A stretch of DNA of 64,000 bases. It comes from Paludibacter sp. (lineage in GTDB: Bacteria; Bacteroidota; Bacteroidia; Bacteroidales; Paludibacteraceae). Numbering within the stretch: the first letter of the stretch is position 1; each line of letters opens with the position of its first letter. Positions 13,699 to 44,155 of the stretch are shown here, in pieces. The position numbers and the translations under genes are program-made. The notes beneath the pieces were generated by a model, which saw nothing but the letters and a program-made list of their open reading frames with translations, was not told where the DNA came from and did not search any database. The stretch covers positions 1 through 64,000 of the forward strand of contig JAQVAV010000016.1 in NCBI GenBank assembly GCA_028690665.1, in the 5' to 3' direction.

Positions 13699-15258
13699 TT
13701 AACCTAATACATTAACGGCCTTTTGGAGCCGGTTTACTGTTTCTTCTTTACCAATAATGGATGTAATGTCAAACATGTGAGGTCCTTTCCCTTCACCAAC
13801 AATAGCAAGGCGAAATGCATTCATAATAACTCCAAGTCCGTATTCTTTCGATTCGACCCAAGCCTTTACAATAGATTCGGTATTGTCTACCGAAAAATCC
13901 TCAATACTTTCCAAAACTCCGATTAACTCAAACATCTGTTTGGGAGAATCTTCTTTCCAGCGTTTTTTTACCGTTTTTTCGTCATAAGAGGCCGGAGCAA
14001 CAAAAAAGTATGAAGCCTGCTCCCAAAGATCAGACACAAATGTAGCCCGCTCTCTTACAAGCCCGACGACTTTCTGAACTTTTTCCGAATCTTCAAAAAT
14101 CTCTTTTTCTACAAGAATATGGTGAAATGCATCTGAAACTTCTTCCAATGGTTTATTTTGCAAATATTTATGATTAAACCATTTCCCCTTCTCATAATCG
14201 AATTTGGCCCCACTCTTACTTACCCGGTCAAGCGAAAACAAATCTATGAGTTCCTGCATCGAAAAAATTTCCTGTTCTGTACCTGGATTCCAGCCCAGCA
14301 AAGCAAGAAAATTCACAACTGCCTCCGGAAAATATCCGGCTTCGCGATATCCGGAAACTGTTTCCCCTGATTTAGGATCTTTCCAATTCAATGGAAAGAC
14401 AGGAAATCCCAGACGGTCGCCATCTCGTTTACTAAGTTTTCCATTACCATCCGGTTTTAACAGTAAAGGTAAATGGGCAAACTCCGGCATGACGTCTTCC
14501 CAGCCTAGATAACGATACAACAATACATGTAACGGGGCCGATGGCAACCATTCCTCACCACGAATTACATGCGAAATTTTCATCAAATAATCGTCGACAA
14601 CGTTAGCCATGTGATAGGTAGGTAATTCATCTGCCGATTTAAACAGGACTTTATCATCAAGAACAGAAGAATTTATCACAACTTCGCCCCGAATCAAATC
14701 CTGCACTTTTATTTCTTCATTAGGTTCTATTTTGATGCGAACCACATATTGATCACCATTTTCTATGCGTTTTGTAACCTCGTCAGCCGATAAAGTCAAC
14801 GAGTTATTCATCATACTACGGGTTTTGGCATCATACTGAAAATTAGGAATTTCCTTACGTTGCGCTTCCAGTTCAGCAGGTGTATCAAATGCAATATACG
14901 CCAAACCGGCCTCAATCAACTGGTCGACATACTTGCGGTAAATAACTTTACGTTCGCTTTGACGGTAAGGGCCGTAAGGTTCTTCCGAACCGTCCTTAGC
15001 TCCAATTCCTTCATCAATTCTGATTCCCAACCAGTTTAGAGCTTCTACAATATAGTCTTCGGCTCCCGGAACAAAACGGGCCGAATCGGTATCTTCGATA
15101 CGCAACAACATATCTCCACCGTGTTTCTTTGCAAAAAGGTAATTATAAAGAGCGGTACGCACTCCTCCGATATGAAGTGGTCCTGTTGGACTTGGCGCAA
15201 ATCTCACTCTGACTTTTTTATCCATGTATCTATTTGAATTTTTATCAAGAAGGCACAA
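13699..15258 (-). CDS. gltX: glutamyl-tRNA synthetase
   Basis: [30 protein letters not shown]-type motif and [15 protein letters not shown]-type motif; probable start is the internal M ([15 protein letters not shown]). Confidence 0.97.
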
Positions 15259-15302: not shown

Positions 15303-17528
15303 TCATTCCGACAACAATACTGATGAATTATAAAGACGCCTGTATCCTCCATCAAAAGACATTAACTCATCATGAGTTCCATGTTCGGTTATTGTTCCAT
15401 TTTCAAAAAAGAAAATTTTATCGACCCAACGGACTGTACTCAGGCGATGGCTGACAATAACTGCTGTTTTATCCCGACTTAAATTCTTCAGTCCATCTAT
15501 TACCTGCCGTTCCGAAGCTGCATCAAGTGCACTCGAAGGTTCATCCAATAAAATCAACGGAGCATCCCGGTAAAATGCACGGGCAATAGCCATTTTCTGC
15601 CATTGTCCTATACTTAGTTCTTCGCCCCCGCTAAATTGATTTCCCAACAAAGTTTCATACCCTTTCGGGAGTTGCTCAATAACATCTGCAATACCGGCAG
15701 CTTCTGCAGCAGTCATAATTAATTTCTTATCCGGTTCCTCTTTATAATTTCCCAAGGCTATATTTTGAAAGACCGGCAAATAGTAAAGTGCAAAATCCTG
15801 AAATACCGCAGCAATATTTTTGCGTAAAGTATCCCCGCCTATTTGTTTTAAATCGGTATCATCCAATAATATCTTCCCTGAATCGGGCTGATAAAATCCA
15901 CATAATAATTTTATTAAAGTAGTTTTTCCAGAACCGTTTTCTCCAACAAAAGCAACCGTTTGTCCTGCAAAAATCTCAATATTAATATCAGAAAGGGCAT
16001 TTCGCAGACTGGTTTCATAACGAAAACTCAGATTCTCAATTACAATTCTTTGCTTAAGTTCAAAATTTCCATGTGCATTAAAACTCTTATCTTCCAACAC
16101 AACAGAATTCAGAAAATCAACAAAATCATTCAAAAATACATTGTCCTCCACTATCCGTGTTGCGGAACGGAACAAATCGTTCATTACAGAATATCCTCGC
16201 TGAAAGGCAAAAAAGAAAAGCACAACCGTACCAATTGTAATAGCTCCGTTTATTTTAAGAAAAGAGACGTAACCCAATGAGCAAAAAATAAGCAAAACGG
16301 CAAACACCTGAGCATATATTTGGAGTTGAAGATCAGATTTTCTTATAATTATCTTTTCTTGGAAAAGCTGGTTTTGTAACTTTTGAAACTTTGTCCTGAA
16401 AAACCCCGGGAACTGAAAAAGTTTCATCTCTTTTGCGAAAGGGAAGCCAGTCAATACCCGGTTATAGTAATACATTTCGCGCTCACTTGCAGCCTGAGCT
16501 GTTTTCTGTTTATATAACCGGGAGGCAAAACGCAGCTGAACAAAAACTTCAGGCAAAACAGCCAGCATTATAATAAGTGCCAAATACCATTTAATAAAAA
16601 TAAAGATTCCCAGAAAAAACAGAGATGAAGTTATTGCCCTAACAACATTCAAAATTTCATTCAGAATTTTTTGAGGGCGATATGATGCTTCCTGGACTGC
16701 ACGATGAATTCTATTTTGCTTTTCGGGATGTTCATAAGCAGACAAATCAAGTCTGGCATGTTTATCATGGAGCCTCTGATAGACCTGTTTCGAAACAGAC
16801 TGCGAAAGTTTTTCGCCCCAATAAGCTCTAAATTCATTCAATAAGCCGTTTAATAAAAAAGCCAATGAGGTAAGTATCAACAAAACATAAAATCCGCAAT
16901 TTGATGCGTGTGCAAAATCTCCGTTGGTCAGATGATCTATTAATAATTTTATCAACACAATCACTAAAAAAGGCAGAACTCCTTGAAAAACGGAGATTAT
17001 TCCATTCAGAATAAAAATTCCGGTCGAGCCTTTCTGAATTATCCTGAGATTAGATTTAAGCGTACCGATTTTTAAGATTTTATTCTCAACATTCAGACGG
17101 AAACGATTAACACGAGAGCAAAGCATTGGTACAAGCAAAGCCATAAATCTATACAAATTCCAACGACTATTTCTGAGTTTGCACTTTTTACCAGCACGTT
17201 CAAAGCCAATAACCTTTCCAACAATGGACGATTCAGGGAAAGGTTTATCATAATACAGATTGTTGTCCCCTTTGGTTATGAATAAGTTTCCTTTTTTTCG
17301 AATAAGCCGGTGAGCTATATATTTTCCGGAATCATTCTTCATAACAACAATATCACCGTTTCTTATTTCGTTGAAACTGCATCTGATAATCAGCCCCCAA
17401 TCTCCATTCCTCAGCACAGGAAACATACTTTGACCGCTTAATTTAATTTTTAAACCAAAATCATTAGATAAAAGCTCCTCGGCCCAATCAAGTATCTGTT
17501 TTTCTGTATGATTTTTATCCATTGTCAA
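15303..17528 (-). CDS. fusion: N-terminal S24/S26 (SipW-like signal peptidase) domain plus ABC exporter (TMD-NBD)
   Basis: N-term KLSGQSMFPVLRNGDWGLI (Ser) and SGKYIAHRLIRKKGNLFITKGDNN (His); then TMDs; Walker A GENGSGKTTL, signature LSIGQWQKMAIARA, Walker B LILLDEPSSALD. Confidence 0.9.
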   Translation of the reverse strand: MTMDKNHTEKQILDWAEELLSNDFGLKIKLSGQSMFPVLRNGDWGLIIRCSFNEIRNGDIVVMKNDSGKYIAHRLIRKKGNLFITKGDNNLYYDKPFPESSIVGKVIGFERAGKKCKLRNSRWNLYRFMALLVPMLCSRVNRFRLNVENKILKIGTLKSNLRIIQKGSTGIFILNGIISVFQGVLPFLVIVLIKLLIDHLTNGDFAHASNCGFYVLLILTSLAFLLNGLLNEFRAYWGEKLSQSVSKQVYQRLHDKHARLDLSAYEHPEKQNRIHRAVQEASYRPQKILNEILNVVRAITSSLFFLGIFIFIKWYLALIIMLAVLPEVFVQLRFASRLYKQKTAQAASEREMYYYNRVLTGFPFAKEMKLFQFPGFFRTKFQKLQNQLFQEKIIIRKSDLQLQIYAQVFAVLLIFCSLGYVSFLKINGAITIGTVVLFFFAFQRGYSVMNDLFRSATRIVEDNVFLNDFVDFLNSVVLEDKSFNAHGNFELKQRIVIENLSFRYETSLRNALSDINIEIFAGQTVAFVGENGSGKTTLIKLLCGFYQPDSGKILLDDTDLKQIGGDTLRKNIAAVFQDFALYYLPVFQNIALGNYKEEPDKKLIMTAAEAAGIADVIEQLPKGYETLLGNQFSGGEELSIGQWQKMAIARAFYRDAPLILLDEPSSALDAASERQVIDGLKNLSRDKTAVIVSHRLSTVRWVDKIFFFENGTITEHGTHDELMSFDGGYRRLYNSSVLLSE

Positions 17529-18372
17529 TCACAAAATCAATGATATGGTTATCAGGTACAAAACCCAGCTCATAAACATTAACCGTCTGAATCATTTTGC
17601 TTAAAAAAGCCAGGTTACCAACAATAAAACTTTGAGAGAAATTATTTTGAATGCAAAAAGCTAATACTTTTGACACAGCAATTGCGCCTTCTATTTTGCG
17701 AATTTTATTTTCCGGGAAGTGCCTAATTAAAAATATGGACCTCAAGACAGTAGATTTCGGTACATCGGCATAATACATAGGTGTATTATACGCTACAAAC
17801 TCTTCTCCCTGACGACGGATAATTATCCTGTCATCGTTTATAACCTGATAGCCGACATCCTTCCATATTTTAGCCATTGTGCTTTTCCCTCTACCGGAAA
17901 ATCCGGCAAAAAGCTGTCCTGTCTTTCCATCGGTTACGCAGGCTGCATGAATCATCACTGCCTCTGAATTCACAGTCAGATATTGCATAATCAATGGGCC
18001 CATTGGGTAACGCAATGGATTTATTTTCCCGTTCGATAATAAGTCGGTATAAATTGTCCAATGCTTTAAATCAGAGCTTAACACGGCTAACTGCTGAATT
18101 TTTCCTTTTTCCTGCTGGTTATATATCAAAAAGGTCAACTCTTTTCCCGTTTGATAAATAGCATAAAAACGTTGCGATTCATTTTCTGCAACAAAAACAG
18201 CTTCACCCAATTCCAATGCCTCAGAAATACCGGCATAGCATGCAATTTCAACATCCGGAGTTTTATTCGACTGAGATTTAAAGGGGTAATACCCTTCTTC
18301 TAAAGAAATCTCGACCTCTGAATTCAAAGATAATTCAAAACCGGCAATTGCTATCTTAGAACTATATCTCAC
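17515..18372 (-). CDS. HPr-kinase-like P-loop protein (PqqD-associated HprK-related)
   Basis: LFAGFSGRGKSTMAKIWKDVGYQVINDDRIII P-loop and DD motif; between pqqD-like and ABC exporter genes. Confidence 0.8.
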   Translation of the reverse strand: MRYSSKIAIAGFELSLNSEVEISLEEGYYPFKSQSNKTPDVEIACYAGISEALELGEAVFVAENESQRFYAIYQTGKELTFLIYNQQEKGKIQQLAVLSSDLKHWTIYTDLLSNGKINPLRYPMGPLIMQYLTVNSEAVMIHAACVTDGKTGQLFAGFSGRGKSTMAKIWKDVGYQVINDDRIIIRRQGEEFVAYNTPMYYADVPKSTVLRSIFLIRHFPENKIRKIEGAIAVSKVLAFCIQNNFSQSFIVGNLAFLSKMIQTVNVYELGFVPDNHIIDFVIDNG

Positions 18373-18378
18373 CTAACG

Positions 18379-18654
18379 TTATTTTAGAGTTGCAGCTATT
18401 TTATTGAGAAATGTTTCAACATCTATTTTGGCAGTTTCTGCCTCAACATCAAACTCCTGAACCAATAAAGCAATAATATCCTCCTTAGTATTCTTCCCAT
18501 CAACTTGTTCCCAAATAAATTTTCCAGTCTCATTTAACGTAAATAAGACATTCATTTGTGCTACATTTCCACTCAACGGGACTAATACCAATTCATCACC
18601 AATTTCACGGGTGATATATTTCGATTTTAACTCAAACAAGAAATGAATATTCAT
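18379..18654 (-). CDS. PqqD-family protein (RiPP recognition element-like)
   Basis: 91 aa; YITREIGDELVLVPLSGNVAQMNVLFTLNETGKFIWEQVDGKNTKEDIIALLVQEFDV matches the PqqD fold pattern. Confidence 0.88.
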   Translation of the reverse strand: MNIHFLFELKSKYITREIGDELVLVPLSGNVAQMNVLFTLNETGKFIWEQVDGKNTKEDIIALLVQEFDVEAETAKIDVETFLNKIAATLK

Positions 18655-18673
18655 AATATATTTTTAACTCCTA

Positions 18674-18705
18674 CAAAGATAAATATTATTTTATCTTCAA
18701 ACAAA
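18674..18705 (-). promoter_or_regulatory. candidate promoter for the pqqD/hprK/ABC operon
   Basis: minus strand TTTG-N20-TATCTTTG, close to the Bacteroidota TTTG-N19-TAnnTTTG consensus; begins in the T tail of the upstream hairpin. Confidence 0.5.
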
Positions 18706-18729
18706 GAGTCCCGGAAGCATCCGGGACTC
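18702..18729 (-). terminator. terminator/attenuator between peptide gene and pqqD-like gene
   Basis: perfect GAGTCCCGG-ATGCTT-CCGGGACTC stem followed by TTTGTTT on the minus strand. Confidence 0.8.
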
Positions 18730-18743
18730 ACTCTTCTTAGTCA

Positions 18744-18923
18744 TTACGCTAAATTTGTTTTATATGGATCATTCAATGAATTCTCCTGAAAATTTTTTGT
18801 TTCTCCAGGACCAGCTGGAGGAGTTGATTCAAGCTGTAATGAAATCTCATTATCAAGCTTAATCTCTCTAATTTCCGGTTGATGATAATTTCTTTTTTTT
18901 GTTATATTCATTTGAAGTTTCAT
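18744..18923 (-). CDS. 59-aa candidate precursor peptide (not in supplied ORF track)
   Basis: translated by hand: MKLQMNITKKRNYHQPEIREIKLDNEISLQLESTPPAGPGETKNFQENSLNDPYKTNLA*; starts 11 nt after the stop of the T9SS gene and is followed by a strong hairpin; next to PqqD/HprK/S26-ABC genes. Confidence 0.7.
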   Translation of the reverse strand: MKLQMNITKKRNYHQPEIREIKLDNEISLQLESTPPAGPGETKNFQENSLNDPYKTNLA

Positions 18924-18934
18924 ATTTTTAATAT

Positions 18935-21337
18935 TTATTTTATTACTATTTTTTGGAGTTTCGTATTCCCAGAATTTAGAGATCCCACAAAATAAACACC
19001 GGTATTTAATTTATCGGATATAACAGTTTTACCAACAACATCCCGTTCCATTATTTTCTGACCGACAGCATTATAAATCACAATTCTATTTTCGGTTTTT
19101 ACATTTACTACAATATTGTTTTGTTTATCTACATAAGTATAAAACGAATTATTTACTTTTTCATTCTCTGTTGTCGTCCCTGTCATTCTAAAAATAAGAC
19201 CAAAACGGTCTGTATTATCAACAATATCAGATATAAAAGTATAAAAATAGCCTGAAGAAATTTCCATTTCATCATTTATTAACTTATCATGCAGGTAAAG
19301 TTTTAATCCGGTTGCAAAGTTAGAAAATTCGGTTGACTTTATAGTAAAATCACCTTGTTCTCCTGTTCTGAAACCAAGGGGAATTTCCACATCAACCGGA
19401 ATCTGGTTCATTCCATTTATAACTAACTCGGAATTGTCTGCTTTTGTATAGATTTCAGGAATTACATCGTTTTCATTCGATATTTTTTGAGAATCATAAC
19501 TATCAAGATCATTATCCGCATTATCATTAAAATATAAAACGGTTTCATCTGTATTCTCCTGGTTTTCGACCTGAATTCTAACAACTTTGTTTAATGAAAC
19601 CTGAGGTGCTTTTAAAATATTGGCTGCAATATCCCGGTCTGCCCGGTCTGTCAATTTAAAGCCCAGACTTCCGGTTGTCGCATTTTCTACCCTAACCCAA
19701 AATGCTTGCATAGAAGGTACGAAATTAGTAACCCCGGCAGGAGAACCTATTTCCCCTCCTCCATAGCCTGCTTCTGAACCATTATAGGTATAAAACTTAT
19801 AGGAACTGCCCTCTTTGGTTCTATACCACATGGTATTATTTAAATAACTTTTTGTTAATGTATTCCAATTCAAATAGGCAGGATATGGATTTCCAACCAA
19901 ATTAAATCCTTCTTTTACCTGACCAGTTGTTCTGGTTAAATTAACGGTAGTATCCTTATTAAATATAGTTCCGGTAAATGTATAAACCTGCCCATTTGAG
20001 CTTCCTATTGAAGCAACATAGCCGATTCCATTTATAAATTCAGATGCAGTAGACCAGCTTGCACCGGCTTCATCTCTAGAATATAAGGCATTTCCAACAA
20101 CATCTGTTACTACCGCTGCACTCGCTGAACTAACAGGACTGGCAATATAATAATTTCGATCTTTTTTCAAAAATTGCTCTACATTATACGAACCGGATCC
20201 GGATATTGCAGAAGGTGTAATTAACGTTGCGGTTCCATTAATTGTATCTGATTGCAATGTAACTGTTCCATTATTGGTCAATACCCCGGCAACAGTAAGT
20301 TGTTTTCCAGCAGCTAAACTAATAATTCCATCAACAATCAAACTTCCAGAGGCCGCTCTATTGGTATTTAAATTTACTGTGCCTGAACTCACCGTTATAT
20401 TTTGTGGTACTTCCGTTGCTGACCAGGAATAATCATTGGCATTTACATCATAAGTAACTTCGGTACCCTGATTAAACTTCAAAATTGCTGTTGAATTATA
20501 AAAATTAGTTGGTGGCGCCGTCGAGACAAATCCTCCATTTCCAATTTCAAGAGTACCAGTAACACTAACGCCTTCACCAAATGAAACTCCTACATTCGAA
20601 CTGCCTGCCGTTTTATTTACCGTAATATTCTCAAAAGCAATAGTTCCAGAAACAACATGTATTGCATCTCCTGAACTTGGTTCTCCTGAAAAAACTACAG
20701 TATTTCCACCCAAGCCATTATCCCATGTTCCACTGTTTGACAGAGTTGAATTTGAACCAGAGATTGAATTATTAAGAGTCAAAATACGTGGAGAAGCATC
20801 ACTCGCGGTGAAAGTAGCACCAGAATTTATGGTGAGACTATAGATAGTAACATTTGCATCCAATGTTATATTATTAGCAATTATGTAACTTGCAGTAGCA
20901 GATGTTGGAACAAATCCATCGCACCAGGTTGACGCAGAATTCCAATAGCCATCTGACACCGTTGTCGGATTTATTGAGATTGCATAATTATTACTACTAT
21001 TACTATCCCAAACATCTGCGCCCCAATCATCCCAACCATGAAAATAATATTCTGTGGCAGTAGACTTAACGGTAATATTCGCAGACCATGTTGAATTATT
21101 TCCGTTATTATCTCCTTGCGTTAAAGAGTAAGCAACCCACGTTCCACCCTCATTTATTTGAACTTCTGCATGACAGCCCGAATAGCTATCATACATTTCT
21201 ACATAAAAGTATATTGTTTGAGAACCTTCTGGCTGTGAACCCGTAAAATGATTTCCCATCCATGATATTGTAGAAAAGACAGGTATCCTTATAAAAAGCA
21301 ACATAAAAAACAAATAAATGCACTTTTTAGTATTCAT
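18935..21337 (-). CDS. T9SS type A sorting domain-containing surface protein
   Basis: signal peptide; C-term NRIVIYNAVGQKIMERDVVGKTVISDKLNTGVYFVGSLNSGNTKLQKIVIK; shares C-terminal modules with the adjacent 1158-aa protein. Confidence 0.9.
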   Translation of the reverse strand: MNTKKCIYLFFMLLFIRIPVFSTISWMGNHFTGSQPEGSQTIYFYVEMYDSYSGCHAEVQINEGGTWVAYSLTQGDNNGNNSTWSANITVKSTATEYYFHGWDDWGADVWDSNSSNNYAISINPTTVSDGYWNSASTWCDGFVPTSATASYIIANNITLDANVTIYSLTINSGATFTASDASPRILTLNNSISGSNSTLSNSGTWDNGLGGNTVVFSGEPSSGDAIHVVSGTIAFENITVNKTAGSSNVGVSFGEGVSVTGTLEIGNGGFVSTAPPTNFYNSTAILKFNQGTEVTYDVNANDYSWSATEVPQNITVSSGTVNLNTNRAASGSLIVDGIISLAAGKQLTVAGVLTNNGTVTLQSDTINGTATLITPSAISGSGSYNVEQFLKKDRNYYIASPVSSASAAVVTDVVGNALYSRDEAGASWSTASEFINGIGYVASIGSSNGQVYTFTGTIFNKDTTVNLTRTTGQVKEGFNLVGNPYPAYLNWNTLTKSYLNNTMWYRTKEGSSYKFYTYNGSEAGYGGGEIGSPAGVTNFVPSMQAFWVRVENATTGSLGFKLTDRADRDIAANILKAPQVSLNKVVRIQVENQENTDETVLYFNDNADNDLDSYDSQKISNENDVIPEIYTKADNSELVINGMNQIPVDVEIPLGFRTGEQGDFTIKSTEFSNFATGLKLYLHDKLINDEMEISSGYFYTFISDIVDNTDRFGLIFRMTGTTTENEKVNNSFYTYVDKQNNIVVNVKTENRIVIYNAVGQKIMERDVVGKTVISDKLNTGVYFVGSLNSGNTKLQKIVIK

Positions 21338-21473
21338 AAATATTTATGGATTTATTATAGTTAACCCACAAATATATTTATTTTTTCGGATTATTATTAC
21401 AAATGTCAGTCTTAAATTAATCTACTAAGTTGCAAACGATTGCAAGATTTATTCTGTTATAATACCAAAACAA

Positions 21474-24400
21474 TTACGGCACTACAATTTTAACAGTTGA
21501 ATTAATTTTTCCGGATATAGCCTTTATAAAATAAATACCGGAAGACAAACTTTGATCTAAAACAGTAATATCGCCAACAGACAATTCAGTAGCTACCTGT
21601 TTACCGGTAACATCAAATACCCGTATGTCAACAGGGTCAGCAATAGATGACATTACACAAATTTTTCCGGACTGGTTCAGATAAGCTTTTATAGTTCTGA
21701 CATTCTCTTTCTCCAAAGCAGTAGTCAAATCTTTAGTTTTCAATAACAATGCAAAACGATCAGTAATATTCTCTACCGCATCCGAACTGAAACTATATGA
21801 TTTTTTTTTGGTAACATCTTCAATTTCATTATTATATTTATCTAAAATAAATATCTGAAATGACTGTTTTAAGGCCTCACTCGATTCCATCTCTATACAG
21901 AAAGTGCCTTGTTTCCCAGTTGTAAAACCAAGTGGAATTTCATTTTGCATATCACTAATTCTAACATTCCGGATCACCATATTTTCATTATTCTTCACGG
22001 TATAAATCTCTGGAATTTCGGCATTTTGATTACTCATTTTCAGCGCATCAAAATCACTGTCATATTCAGAATCGGGCCTTATCACCAAAATTGTTTCATC
22101 TGAATTTAAGCCATTCGAAATGCTGATTCTTAAAATTTTATCCAGTGATACGGATTTCATTTTTAATCTATTGGTTTCTACTTCATGTGTACGTAACGCA
22201 TTTGTAAAATTTACCACGCCAGTTTTACTTCCATCCGTCACTTTTACCCATACGCTTTGCATAGGAGGAATCATTCCGGTAACTGCACCTAACTTATTAT
22301 TATTAGTTCCTATTCCATTAAAAGTATCAAAAACATAATTTCCTGCAAGATTTTTTGTTCTGTACCAAATGGTATGGTCTACATCAATTTTTTCAGCTTC
22401 AGACCAATCTAAGTATGATGGATAAGGATTTCCCAATAAATTATAACCTTCTTTTTGCTTTCCGGCTGTTCGTGTCAAAGTAACAGACAAATCTCCATTG
22501 TTTAACTTTGTTCCGGTAAATTCAATATAATTTGAACTCGCTGTTTGTTTTGTTATAAATCCCATTGCAGGGGAAAGATCAGACCCGATTGAAATTAATT
22601 CCCAGTATTCTGTTTCAGGAGAAACGTAGTCTATATTATTGCCAGGTTCATCATATTTATAAATTGTAAAACCAGCTGGAGCCGGAGCATTATATACAGG
22701 GGACGACATATACCAGTTACGAACTGAATTAAGGAATTGACTCACAATATAATTTCCTGTTCCTCGCATCTCCTCGGGCGTTAAAATAGTAGCTAATTCA
22801 ATTGAATTTGAAAATAATTTTATAGTACCATTATTCGTAAAATTAGAAGTACATGTCAGATTTTTTCCGGCGTTGATTGTAAGCATTCCGTTAACGATCA
22901 AGTTCTCTATTGTTACATCTCCATTCAATGCAATAGAATGACCACTCTGAATTTCCACTAAGCCATCTGTATCAGGTTCAGAACCCGCATCAATCCAAGA
23001 GTTTCCTCCATCAACAGATTTAGTCCAACAGCTTGAACTTTCCCAAATTCCACTTGCTTTTGTTTTATAATACTTTGTAGGTTTGTGAATTGTATTGCCG
23101 GGAATTGAGATTGTCACACCCGAAGGGACTGAAGGGCCATAATTTTGATCAAAAATATTGGATATCGTTATAATGCCGGGACCACCTTTTGTAAAAGATG
23201 AATTTGGCTGCTTAAAATATGGTACCGATATATTGGAATCAGCAGTAAATATTTTTCCAGATCCGGTAAAAATTAACCATCCGGAACCAGAACAATAAAA
23301 TGGTTCATACCCTCCTTTAGACACAGTTATGTTTCCTCCTATAAAAATGCTTCCATCACTATATTCAATACGGGAATTCCATTCATTTGGAGTATTTGTA
23401 AAATCTCCGATAATAGTCAAATTATTCGATCCAACGCTTACTGAACTTTGATTTGTGAGAGACAAACTACCATTAACCATAAAATCATGATTAAGAATCA
23501 AATGACTATTATAAACCGTCATATCTAATCCGGCACAGGAAAGGTCTAGTACATCGACCGTAACGGTATGTCCCTGACAAAATATAACAGTATCAACAGA
23601 AGTAGGATATGAACCGGAATTTGTACTTCCACCACATCCTTCCGTTGTCCATGTCGATGGAGTTGTCCAATTGCCTGATTGCCTGGAATAATACTTTTTA
23701 GGTTTATTACTAAACGTCGCTTGCTCAGAATACGTGACTCCGGAACTGTTTTTTGCATACGCTTTAAAATAATACGTAGTGTTTGGCGATAAATCTGTTA
23801 CCGGTAAAAGATATTGGCCAAGTCCGAAATTTCCTGCTTCTGCAATCCGGATTCCAGCTCCGTCTGCAAAACCATCGATCGTACTTACATAAAAACCTCT
23901 TTCTGATATTACATCCGAACTACAACCGGTTAATGTCACAGTAGCTCCCAAAGTAGCGGTTGTACCCGTTATGGCAGAACTAATCAATGAGTCAACTTTG
24001 GGTACCACATTATAAGATCCGGCACCTGTTACCTGTATATTTACACTCTCGGCTCCTCCTCCGGTGACAACGATATTACCATTATACAACCCATTAGCAT
24101 CCGGAGAAAATTTTACAAAAATAGTTTGAGAAAAATTTCCTCCATTTTGATCAAAAGTCAATGTTGTTGTATATAAGCCATCATTCGATGTTGATAGTGT
24201 ATATCCATCTGGAACTGTAACATAAATATCCTGATCATACAACCCCAATCCGGAAAGTTCAAAAAATTGAACATCTGAAGTTAAACCGGGACAAACAACT
24301 CCGAAATCCATCGAATCGACAGCTGACAATGTCGAAGCACATGGTGTCGCATGAATTTTAGTTGCTGCTGTAGTATTGATCCCCGAAGGTATTGATGACT

Positions 24401-24950
24401 GAAAACAATTATAATCATATACTCCGGAAACCGTCAACTCTGTTGTATTATTGAGGACGAAAGCAAATGACGAAGAACCAACCCGAAAGTTAGCAATTTC
24501 TTTTTCTACATAAAACATCGGTATCGTTCCGTTTATTTGCAAATATCCGGTAGTCTGAGAAATAGTTGATTTATTCCCCCAGTCAACAGACCAACTATTT
24601 TCCACCACTAAATCAAAATCACCTAAGTTAATTACACTCGCAGAACCAGTGTTATCAAAATACAAATTTGCACAAGTTGCATCTTCTGTAAGTGTTATAG
24701 TAACAACATTTCCATTATTAGCAATATGCGCATTATCTCCACTCTGGGGATAAGTACCTGCATTTCCCACTCCATTCCAACCACCATCCGTTGTCCATGT
24801 TTCTGGACTATTCCACAGACCGGATTGACGCTGATAGTAATCAGTAGCAAAAAGAAATCCGGCATAAAAAACAAAAAATACGACAGTAAAAAGAAATTTG
24901 CATCCCGGCAGTTTAGTTTCAACGCAGGACGGACGACAAATTACACCCAT
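21474..24950 (-). CDS. large T9SS type A sorting domain-containing surface protein with internal repeats
   Basis: C-term VDIRVFDVTGKQVATELSVGDITVLDQSLSSGIYFIKAISGKINSTVKIVVP; three repeats of the type YYxRQSGxWxxPxTWTTxG...P.S.D; the true start may be downstream of the annotated M. Confidence 0.88.
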   Translation of the reverse strand: MGVICRPSCVETKLPGCKFLFTVVFFVFYAGFLFATDYYQRQSGLWNSPETWTTDGGWNGVGNAGTYPQSGDNAHIANNGNVVTITLTEDATCANLYFDNTGSASVINLGDFDLVVENSWSVDWGNKSTISQTTGYLQINGTIPMFYVEKEIANFRVGSSSFAFVLNNTTELTVSGVYDYNCFQSSIPSGINTTAATKIHATPCASTLSAVDSMDFGVVCPGLTSDVQFFELSGLGLYDQDIYVTVPDGYTLSTSNDGLYTTTLTFDQNGGNFSQTIFVKFSPDANGLYNGNIVVTGGGAESVNIQVTGAGSYNVVPKVDSLISSAITGTTATLGATVTLTGCSSDVISERGFYVSTIDGFADGAGIRIAEAGNFGLGQYLLPVTDLSPNTTYYFKAYAKNSSGVTYSEQATFSNKPKKYYSRQSGNWTTPSTWTTEGCGGSTNSGSYPTSVDTVIFCQGHTVTVDVLDLSCAGLDMTVYNSHLILNHDFMVNGSLSLTNQSSVSVGSNNLTIIGDFTNTPNEWNSRIEYSDGSIFIGGNITVSKGGYEPFYCSGSGWLIFTGSGKIFTADSNISVPYFKQPNSSFTKGGPGIITISNIFDQNYGPSVPSGVTISIPGNTIHKPTKYYKTKASGIWESSSCWTKSVDGGNSWIDAGSEPDTDGLVEIQSGHSIALNGDVTIENLIVNGMLTINAGKNLTCTSNFTNNGTIKLFSNSIELATILTPEEMRGTGNYIVSQFLNSVRNWYMSSPVYNAPAPAGFTIYKYDEPGNNIDYVSPETEYWELISIGSDLSPAMGFITKQTASSNYIEFTGTKLNNGDLSVTLTRTAGKQKEGYNLLGNPYPSYLDWSEAEKIDVDHTIWYRTKNLAGNYVFDTFNGIGTNNNKLGAVTGMIPPMQSVWVKVTDGSKTGVVNFTNALRTHEVETNRLKMKSVSLDKILRISISNGLNSDETILVIRPDSEYDSDFDALKMSNQNAEIPEIYTVKNNENMVIRNVRISDMQNEIPLGFTTGKQGTFCIEMESSEALKQSFQIFILDKYNNEIEDVTKKKSYSFSSDAVENITDRFALLLKTKDLTTALEKENVRTIKAYLNQSGKICVMSSIADPVDIRVFDVTGKQVATELSVGDITVLDQSLSSGIYFIKAISGKINSTVKIVVP

Positions 24951-25233: not shown

Positions 25234-26052
25234 TTACTCCTGATTCAAAGTAACACGTTTAAACGCCGTTGCTGTTGCTTTGTTAGCTTTCAGATATGCA
25301 GCAACCGTTTGTTTATTATCTTTAATAAAGGTCTGTTCGAGCAAGGTAGATTCCTGGAAAAATTTATTCAGACGACCCTGAGCAATTTTATCCAACATGT
25401 TTTCAGGTTTACCTTCCTGACGAGCTTTATCTCGACCAATTTCTAATTCTGTATCAATTACTTTCTGCGGAACAGATGCCCGGTCAAGCGATACAGGATT
25501 CATAGCTGCAGCCTGCATTGCAATATCATGAGCTACCTGATATTCAACGCCTTCTTCAGCAAAAGCAACAACAGTTGCTAATTTATTTCCCGGATGTACA
25601 TAAAACGCGGTTGTTCCTCCCTGTACAAATTCATAATAATCCAGTTCCATTTTTTCCCCGGTCACTCCGGAACGGTCTGTAACCAAATCTGCAATGACAC
25701 GACCATCCAAAGTAAGAGCTTTTACTTCATCCAAAGAAGTGCATTTTGCAGCCATAGCTGCATCAAGGACAGATTTAGTCAATGCTATAAAATCTGCATT
25801 TTTGGCAACAAAGTCGGTTTCACATTTTAAAGCAATGATGGCGGCAAATCCATCTTTTGCTTCTGCGAGAACACAACCTTCAGATGCTTCACGATCACTA
25901 CGCTTTGCTGCGATAGCCTGACCTTTTTTACGAATAATTTCAACTGCTTTTTCGAAATCGTTTTCTGCTTCAACCAAAGCATTTTTGCAATCCATCATAC
26001 CGGCTCCGGTCATGGTACGCAATTTCGAAATTTCTGCCATTGTTACTGCCAT
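25234..26052 (-). CDS. tsf: translation elongation factor Ts
   Basis: AEISKLRTMTGAGMMDCKNALVEAENDFEKAVEIIRKKG; IALKCETDFVAKN. Confidence 0.97.
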   Translation of the reverse strand: MAVTMAEISKLRTMTGAGMMDCKNALVEAENDFEKAVEIIRKKGQAIAAKRSDREASEGCVLAEAKDGFAAIIALKCETDFVAKNADFIALTKSVLDAAMAAKCTSLDEVKALTLDGRVIADLVTDRSGVTGEKMELDYYEFVQGGTTAFYVHPGNKLATVVAFAEEGVEYQVAHDIAMQAAAMNPVSLDRASVPQKVIDTELEIGRDKARQEGKPENMLDKIAQGRLNKFFQESTLLEQTFIKDNKQTVAAYLKANKATATAFKRVTLNQE

Positions 26053-42496: not shown

Positions 42497-44155
42497 TTAA
42501 TTTACCTTTATAAATTTATTGATAGATAACAATTGAGATCCTTGATCTCCTTTCACAATTAAGTAGTACAAACCATTGTCCATATTTAGAGAGAATGGTA
42601 TATGTCCAACATTATTTGTACTGAAACTCTTTATTTCCTGCCCAAGCATATTCGCAATTATCACACTCACAGACTTAACAGAAGAATCTACATCGATATA
42701 AATAACATCTCTTACCGGATTTGGATAAAATCTGACAACTTCATCAACTTTTTCTTGTTGTATTGATGTTGCCTCTGTTTTTTCAAAAGAATATCTGGAA
42801 ACGGCACTATTAAACAATACCTGGAGACCTGCTTCAGAGACAATGTTATATGTTCTTACTGTTATTGTATCATACGGAACAGATGTCGTTGTTGTCAGTA
42901 TCACTTTATTATGATTCGACGGATCTAATGCAGCCTCTGAAAGTTCAATTGTATCTAACACATTAGCTCCCAAATCATCAGGTTGTCTGTAAGTTACTAA
43001 ATAATTTGCAGTACTACCAACACTATTTTCATCAACAGCATCACTAAAATAAATATTAATTTTATTATCATCCTGTGATTCTGCCATTGTTACTGTTGGA
43101 TTTACCCCCGTATAATTATCGGAAATAAAGGCATATCCCCAACCTCCTATAAAAATCTTATGATCAGGAAGTACATTTACCGAACCTACTGCAAGGTTTA
43201 TAAAAGATGGATGTCTTGTCCATGTTTTCCCGTTATCAGCAGAATATGCAAGGCCATAAAGTGAACTAGTTGAGAAATAAACCTCATGAACCGGATCATA
43301 TTTAATTCTTTTCAAAAACCAATAGTCTCCATCCTGTTGATCCCAAGTAGTACCTCCATTATCTGTGGTATAAACACGGTAATCATTGTTTGTTGCATCT
43401 GAAATCACAACCATTCCCTGATTATCATTTTTAAAATCAGCGCTCAAATACGAATTGCTTGTTGCCGGAGTATTAATTACAGTCCAATTATGTCCTTTGT
43501 CATTTGATTTAAACAAACGTCCACCGCTGGTCGTAAAATAAATTGTCTCATTCCTTACCACAACATGGCTGCTTGAGTTTAGTCCCCATTCAGAATTACC
43601 ACTAGGCATTTGACCAGATGGCACGGGTTCCCATGTCTGCCCAGCATCTGACGTTGTATATAATTCAAAATTTTCGTTGGGATAAGCATCTCCCATGGTT
43701 AATCCTTCATTTTCATTCCAGAAATATACAAAATTAGGAAACGATGAACTTGAAAACACATTGGAAACTTTCGTCCAAGAGATTCCCCCATCTGTAGTTT
43801 TATACAATCCTGTTTTCGACACAGTTTCGGCATATGCTCCAGCAGCAACAATATAAGCAGTAGTCTCACTTACTGCAGAAAAAGAACCTAGGGTACAACC
43901 ATCAAACAACTCAGTATAAGGACGGTTAACCCAGGTCTGGCCATCATCTGTCGAAATTGAAACTGAAAGATTCGTTTGATCCGTTAACCAAATAACATTC
44001 TGGTTTACTACGGAAACATTATCAATATAAGAAGTTTGTAAAGCATTACGCTGAACCCATTGGGCATCTACAAAAACAGCTACACTAAAAAAAATCAAAA
44101 TAAGATACAGATTCTTCATACACATATTTTTTAAATTAAACATAAAAAAAGACAC
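42497..44155 (-). CDS. T9SS cargo with YCF48/BNR-like beta-propeller
   Basis: repeated STDDGQTWVN, TTDGGISWTK, TSDAGQTWEP, SNDKGHNWTV, TTDNGGTTWDQ, SADNGKTWTR blades; C-term T9SS domain. Confidence 0.88.
   Translation of the reverse strand: MSFFMFNLKNMCMKNLYLILIFFSVAVFVDAQWVQRNALQTSYIDNVSVVNQNVIWLTDQTNLSVSISTDDGQTWVNRPYTELFDGCTLGSFSAVSETTAYIVAAGAYAETVSKTGLYKTTDGGISWTKVSNVFSSSSFPNFVYFWNENEGLTMGDAYPNENFELYTTSDAGQTWEPVPSGQMPSGNSEWGLNSSSHVVVRNETIYFTTSGGRLFKSNDKGHNWTVINTPATSNSYLSADFKNDNQGMVVISDATNNDYRVYTTDNGGTTWDQQDGDYWFLKRIKYDPVHEVYFSTSSLYGLAYSADNGKTWTRHPSFINLAVGSVNVLPDHKIFIGGWGYAFISDNYTGVNPTVTMAESQDDNKINIYFSDAVDENSVGSTANYLVTYRQPDDLGANVLDTIELSEAALDPSNHNKVILTTTTSVPYDTITVRTYNIVSEAGLQVLFNSAVSRYSFEKTEATSIQQEKVDEVVRFYPNPVRDVIYIDVDSSVKSVSVIIANMLGQEIKSFSTNNVGHIPFSLNMDNGLYYLIVKGDQGSQLLSINKFIKVN

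Follow-up and report, generated by a model that had tools for sequence, protein, structure and literature searches.

What is a gene for a 59-aa peptide doing between genes for surface proteins of the type IX secretion system (T9SS) and genes for a PqqD-like protein, an HprK-like kinase and a peptidase-exporter fusion? The question is raised by positions 15303–24950 of the window, the whole 64,000-nt stretch analysed here (Paludibacter sp., order Bacteroidales; assembly GCA_028690665.1, contig JAQVAV010000016.1, positions 1–64,000 of the forward strand). The peptide is best read, with a probability of about 0.72, as the precursor of a ribosomally synthesized and post-translationally modified peptide (RiPP) resembling the linear polyphosphorylated peptides (LPPs) of Bacillota. 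It would be processed by the PqqD, kinase and peptidase-exporter proteins, whose genes are here called the triplet, and would work, or be delivered, together with a T9SS surface protein.

Organization of the locus

Six minus-strand open reading frames (ORFs) lie between tsf (25234–26052) and gltX (13699–15258), exactly where an earlier note on this DNA had placed them. The features are as follows.

21474–24950, minus strand: T9SS surface protein B, 1158 aa; N-terminal region variable, conserved C-terminal module of ~440 aa with sorting domain (TIGR04183, 31 bits).
18935–21337, minus strand: T9SS surface protein A, 800 aa, encoded immediately upstream of the peptide gene; 22 homologues align with it in the C-terminal module and the sorting domain.
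18744–18923, minus strand: putative precursor peptide, 59 aa, with Y13, P16, D24, S28 and S33; family alignment, 57-member position table, dN below dS.
18840–18923, minus strand: predicted leader, residues 1–28, with the candidate RRE-binding motif Y13..P16.I18, placed by spacing from LppA.
18747–18839, minus strand: predicted core, residues 29–59; codon of S33 at 18825–18827.
18706–18729, minus strand: probable intrinsic terminator, a hairpin at the presumed end of the T9SS-peptide transcript; GC-rich stem of 10 pairs and T-rich tail, with comparable hairpins at related loci.
18674–18705, minus strand: candidate Bacteroidota-type promoter of the triplet, a sequence match; TTTG at 18702–18705 (or 18698–18701), -7 box TATCTTTG at 18674–18681.
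18379–18654, minus strand: PqqD, a discrete RiPP recognition element (RRE); PF05402, E 2e-18; N41, D78 and F82.
17515–18372, minus strand: HprK-like kinase; H142, P-loop GFSGRGKST and D180-D181 conserved in an alignment of 35 homologues.
15303–17528, minus strand: S26 (SipW/Sec11-type) peptidase fused to an MsbA-like ATP-binding cassette (ABC) exporter; S34, H73, D88 and D94 conserved; Pfam, MsbA model and SEC11 PDB matches.

Protein B scores above the TIGR04183 cut-off. Protein A falls just under it (16 bits against 23 in one search, 22.6 bits in another), but aligns with the C-terminal module and sorting domain of protein B despite this score.

Peptide family and distribution

The peptide is without Pfam or NCBIfam match. 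It belongs to a family with the motif Y..P.I..I.ID..ISL.M.[S/T], followed by a proline-rich variable tail that often ends in an NDPFK-like motif. In 57 distinct peptides, positions were numbered relative to the conserved Tyr, which is Phe in one member. Pro at Y+3, an acidic residue at Y+11 and Ser or Thr at Y+20 are present in all 57. At Y+15 the residue is small in 56 peptides; Ser predominates there, and Ala, Thr, Asn and Cys also occur. In this table L048 was brought into register by eye, the second copy of L112, without the Y..P part, was excluded, and L101 is a doubtful member.

A search with the HprK-like protein gave 18 loci on named contigs of Paludibacter and other Bacteroidales assemblies. 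Strong matches (E below ~1e-13) were present in 26 of 295 Bacteroidales genomes, and 20 regions were read. The gene order PqqD-HprK-S26-ABC is kept in most loci; peptidase and exporter are fused in the Paludibacter-related clade and are separate genes in other families. At one locus (L063:10615–14041) the extra genes between kinase and S26 were considered as tailoring enzymes and rejected, being DNA-methylase/HTH-like by eye and apparently an unrelated mobile or defence insertion.

Of 38 related Bacteroidales loci, 21 have the peptide gene next to the PqqD-HprK-S26-ABC genes, and one more has a partial copy where the contig ends. The near clade has the gene between the T9SS gene and pqqD; distant clades, where it was found, have it between pqqD and the kinase gene. 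Among close relatives the nonsynonymous rate (dN, 0.19–0.39) is well below the synonymous rate (dS, 0.66–1.94). Since a conserved family stands beside homologous triplets and dN is so much lower than dS, the ORF is more than a chance reading frame. The earlier note had made its proposal depend on a small ORF conserved beside such triplets and on a peptide that is translated; the former was found, and the coding constraint is consistent with the latter.

Peptide and strong HprK match occur together in 23 of the 295 genomes, HprK alone in 3 and the peptide alone in 5. The peptide is thus present in 23/26 genomes with HprK versus 5/269 others (Fisher p ~2e-26, with genomes treated as independent, which they are not). 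When 395 genomes from across the phylum were sampled, most of the listed ones outside Bacteroidales, a peptide match was obtained only in this genome.

Pairing with T9SS genes and transcription signals

Three peptide genes and one triplet, a single processing set, are present in this genome. Each peptide gene starts ~10–50 bp past the stop codon of a T9SS protein gene, and each of these proteins is of the subfamily of protein A. The sorting domain has ~148 matching places in the genome; strong members of the protein-A subfamily are only four, all located in the three peptide loci. Over all loci a T9SS gene precedes 43 of 55 testable peptide genes, far from chance against a background of ~4.5% (148 places per assumed 3,300 genes). 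The T9SS gene was counted within 900 nt on the same strand, with PqqD allowed between; enough flank was required, and the doubtful L101 was excluded. Co-occurrence of the T9SS genes in related genomes, on which the earlier note had staked its pairing, is borne out for the peptide. The T9SS cargo set of this genome is very large (e.g. C1:34287–35397 and 42533–42727). At three further loci (L120, L123 and L099) a PqqD gene directly precedes an off-triplet peptide gene, and two of these stand behind a T9SS gene.

The hairpin at 18706–18729, with its GC-rich stem of 10 pairs, is followed by TTTGTTTG. The order peptide, hairpin with T-run, TA..TTTG -7 box and pqqD recurs in the window and in most of eight related loci, and the box is present upstream of pqqD in 9/9 loci examined. 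Because these elements recur in this order, they read as a terminator and a separate promoter for the triplet. Most likely the peptide gene ends the T9SS transcript, and the triplet is driven by its own promoter; peptide and triplet probably do not share a transcript.

Predicted processing enzymes

The PDB matches of PqqD are TbiB1 (5v1u), LppB (9x8z) and PbaB1 (9x90), all weak. Its near-invariant N41, D78 and F82 correspond to LppB N33, D70 and F74, as read off the alignment in printed form, at a constant numbering offset of 18. The kinase has remote matches only (Hpr_kinase_C, E 0.003; HprK_rel_B, E 2e-9), both under the cut-off. Its H142, P-loop residues and D180-D181 are invariant across 35 homologues.

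In the exporter a Peptidase_S24 domain (E 4e-9) is fused to ABC_membrane and ABC_tran. MsbA is the best NCBIfam match (307 bits), under its equivalog cut-off, and SEC11 is the best PDB match of the S26 domain. Residues S34, H73 and D88 are conserved in 38/38 and D94 in 37/38; the Ser-His spacing of 39 equals that of LppS (S29/H68). An N-terminal peptidase on an ABC exporter that trims its own cargo is likewise found in the peptidase-containing ABC transporters (PCATs), which carry a C39 peptidase and export double-glycine peptides. Here, in contrast, the peptidase is of the S26 serine type, and the leader is without a GG site and would be recognised via a separate RRE.

The nucleoside triphosphate (NTP) transferase PF14907 is adjacent in 8/38 loci, and this genome has one unlinked copy. 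It is present in 23/26 genomes with the system versus 70/269 others (p ~4e-10). Many Bacteroidales also possess a diverged HprK-like gene near a PF14907 gene, with no family peptide detected nearby (G230:C35, G208:C21, G258:C2, G055:C101, G277:C25 and L031, equal to G245:C20); these pairs are probably a separate HprK/NTP system.

Comparison with known systems

LPPs were described from Bacillota, with the lpp cluster of P. alginolyticus (Nat Commun, May 2026; PMC13381572). Their enzyme set comprises a discrete RRE, an HprK-like kinase, a SipW-like peptidase, an NTP transferase and an MsbA-like exporter, and the precursor consensus is YxxPxVLxHQxIxFETxxS (PMC13381572). LppB residues D70, N33 and F74 hold the leader Tyr and Pro; LppK phosphorylates core Ser3, and LppS, assisted by the RRE, cleaves after T-1 (PMC13381572). 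The Bacteroidales system shares the discrete RRE, the HprK-like kinase, the SipW/Sec11-type peptidase, the MsbA-like ABC protein, the lack of a cyclase (here in the loci inspected by eye) and, in part, the NTP transferase. A YxxP leader is common to both. The distance from Tyr to the cleavage zone is 15 in LppA (T-1) and in the Bacteroidales peptides (small residue), and a conserved Ser/Thr follows this zone.

Differences are also evident. The hosts are Bacteroidales here and Bacillota there; S26 is fused to ABC in the Paludibacter-related clade; the partner is a T9SS surface protein, in place of capsule loci; several precursors per genome would be served in trans; Thr as well as Ser is present at the predicted site; and the NTP transferase is usually unlinked. 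Of the leader consensus the YxxPx[IVL] part and the spacing match, and the HQxIxFET part is absent. Sequence comparison thus points to an LPP-like variant rather than a proven member of the LPP class, because that part is missing and phosphorylation is here read from the genes. As the LPP class has a matching enzyme set, the chemistry is not without precedent, contrary to what had been proposed, while the steps named in the earlier note (PqqD recognition, HprK-type phosphorylation, S26 cleavage and ABC export) gain support from the close LPP parallels. No earlier description of the Bacteroidales version was found in a literature search that covered few subscription papers and no preprints.

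Phosphorylated lasso peptides of the paeninodin/pseudomycoidin type resemble the system in PqqD (B1), HprK-like kinase, NTP transferase, ABC exporter and [Y/W]xxP leader. They differ in the phosphosite, which is the C-terminal Ser there and is predicted near the start of the core here.

Proposed pathway

The gene family, its conservation and motifs, and the co-occurrence and adjacency of the genes are seen in the sequences; from them we infer the chemical steps, the export route and the T9SS partnership. PqqD, as the RRE, would bind the YxxP leader. The HprK-like protein would phosphorylate the Ser/Thr at Y+20 (S33 here), a site predicted because the hydroxyl is invariant there, the residue never being Ala or Gly. 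The S26 domain would remove the leader by a cut that most likely falls just behind the small residue at Y+15 (S28 here); a signal-peptidase cut is predicted at this position because small residues, Ala and Cys included, are preferred there. The fused ABC half would export the linear phosphopeptide to the periplasm, and the NTP transferase may decorate the phosphate further. Several precursor genes across the genome would share one processing set, and each is probably co-transcribed with a T9SS surface protein gene of its own. For this reason the mature peptide most likely works, or is delivered, with the protein of that gene.

A more specific form of the last step is advanced tentatively: the exported phosphopeptide might bind or attach to the T9SS C-terminal module in the periplasm and be carried along to the cell surface. 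This is possible but doubtful. If true, one RiPP machinery would supply several surface proteins, each with its matching phosphopeptide. To our knowledge no RiPP has such a role in surface-protein display.

Several observations weigh against the proposed pathway. The kinase is far under the HprK cut-offs. The cleavage position is taken from spacing, and the cut could also conceivably fall behind Y+20. Of the 57 peptides, 15 have Thr at Y+20, a residue that LppK did not accept (PMC13381572). Some genomes have the triplet and no peptide found, or the peptide without a strong HprK match. No T9SS gene was called upstream by script for 12 of the 55 testable peptide genes, although at one of them, L100, a T9SS-like C-terminus is seen upstream by eye. 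The T9SS C-terminal module is common, being present in 120/295 genomes; the idea that it is exclusive to the peptide system was rejected, and since so many genomes have the module, the pairing is specific for the peptide and not for the module.

Alternative explanations

The strongest competitor accepts an LPP-like RiPP and removes the partner: the product acts alone as a signal or antimicrobial, and the T9SS gene is a mere neighbour with shared regulation. The LPP enzyme set and leader fit such a product, and peptide genes without a T9SS neighbour exist (L115, L122, L126 and L128). This explanation is nonetheless unlikely, given that 43 of 55 testable peptide genes stand behind a T9SS gene and that 3/3 distant loci of this genome use one T9SS subfamily despite ~148 sorting-domain places.

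Two further explanations are improbable, to about the same degree. In one the HprK-like protein is a regulator, or a kinase of another protein, and the peptide is merely cut and exported, as the weak similarity to true HprK would allow. Against this, the peptide gene lies between pqqD and the kinase gene in distant clades where it was found, a Ser or Thr is invariant at a fixed peptide position, and precursor phosphorylation by such kinases is known from LPP and paeninodin systems. In the other the peptide is no secreted product but serves the T9SS protein, as its dedicated chaperone or as an aid to its secretion. Tight pairing with the T9SS gene and the location at the end of its transcript unit agree with a chaperone. 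The leader-like N terminus with its RRE motif, the presence of a dedicated peptidase-exporter, and a C-terminal part that varies as RiPP cores typically do speak against one.

That the peptide becomes a lasso peptide, with its cyclase and B2 peptidase encoded at other places in the genome, is very improbable. Paeninodin-type clusters do share with this system the YxxP leader, the discrete RRE, HprK and the NTP transferase, but the B2 peptidase PF13471 is absent from this genome and 19/23 system genomes, which weakens a pathway in trans, no cyclase-like gene was seen by eye in the inspected loci (a genome-wide cyclase search was not made), and the S26 peptidase can supply leader cleavage.

Significance

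The processed, LPP-like precursor thus remains the preferred explanation. What is new is the occurrence in Bacteroidales, the fusion of peptidase with exporter and, most of all, the way in which peptide genes pair with T9SS genes. LPPs and paeninodins have been stated to be restricted to Bacillota, and the biological roles of LPPs are given as unknown (PMC13381572). The present system would place an LPP-like pathway in a Gram-negative order, against that restriction. Fusion of peptidase and exporter would couple leader removal with transport. The gene-by-gene link of the peptide to a defined class of secreted surface proteins is a concrete clue to what such phosphopeptides may do.

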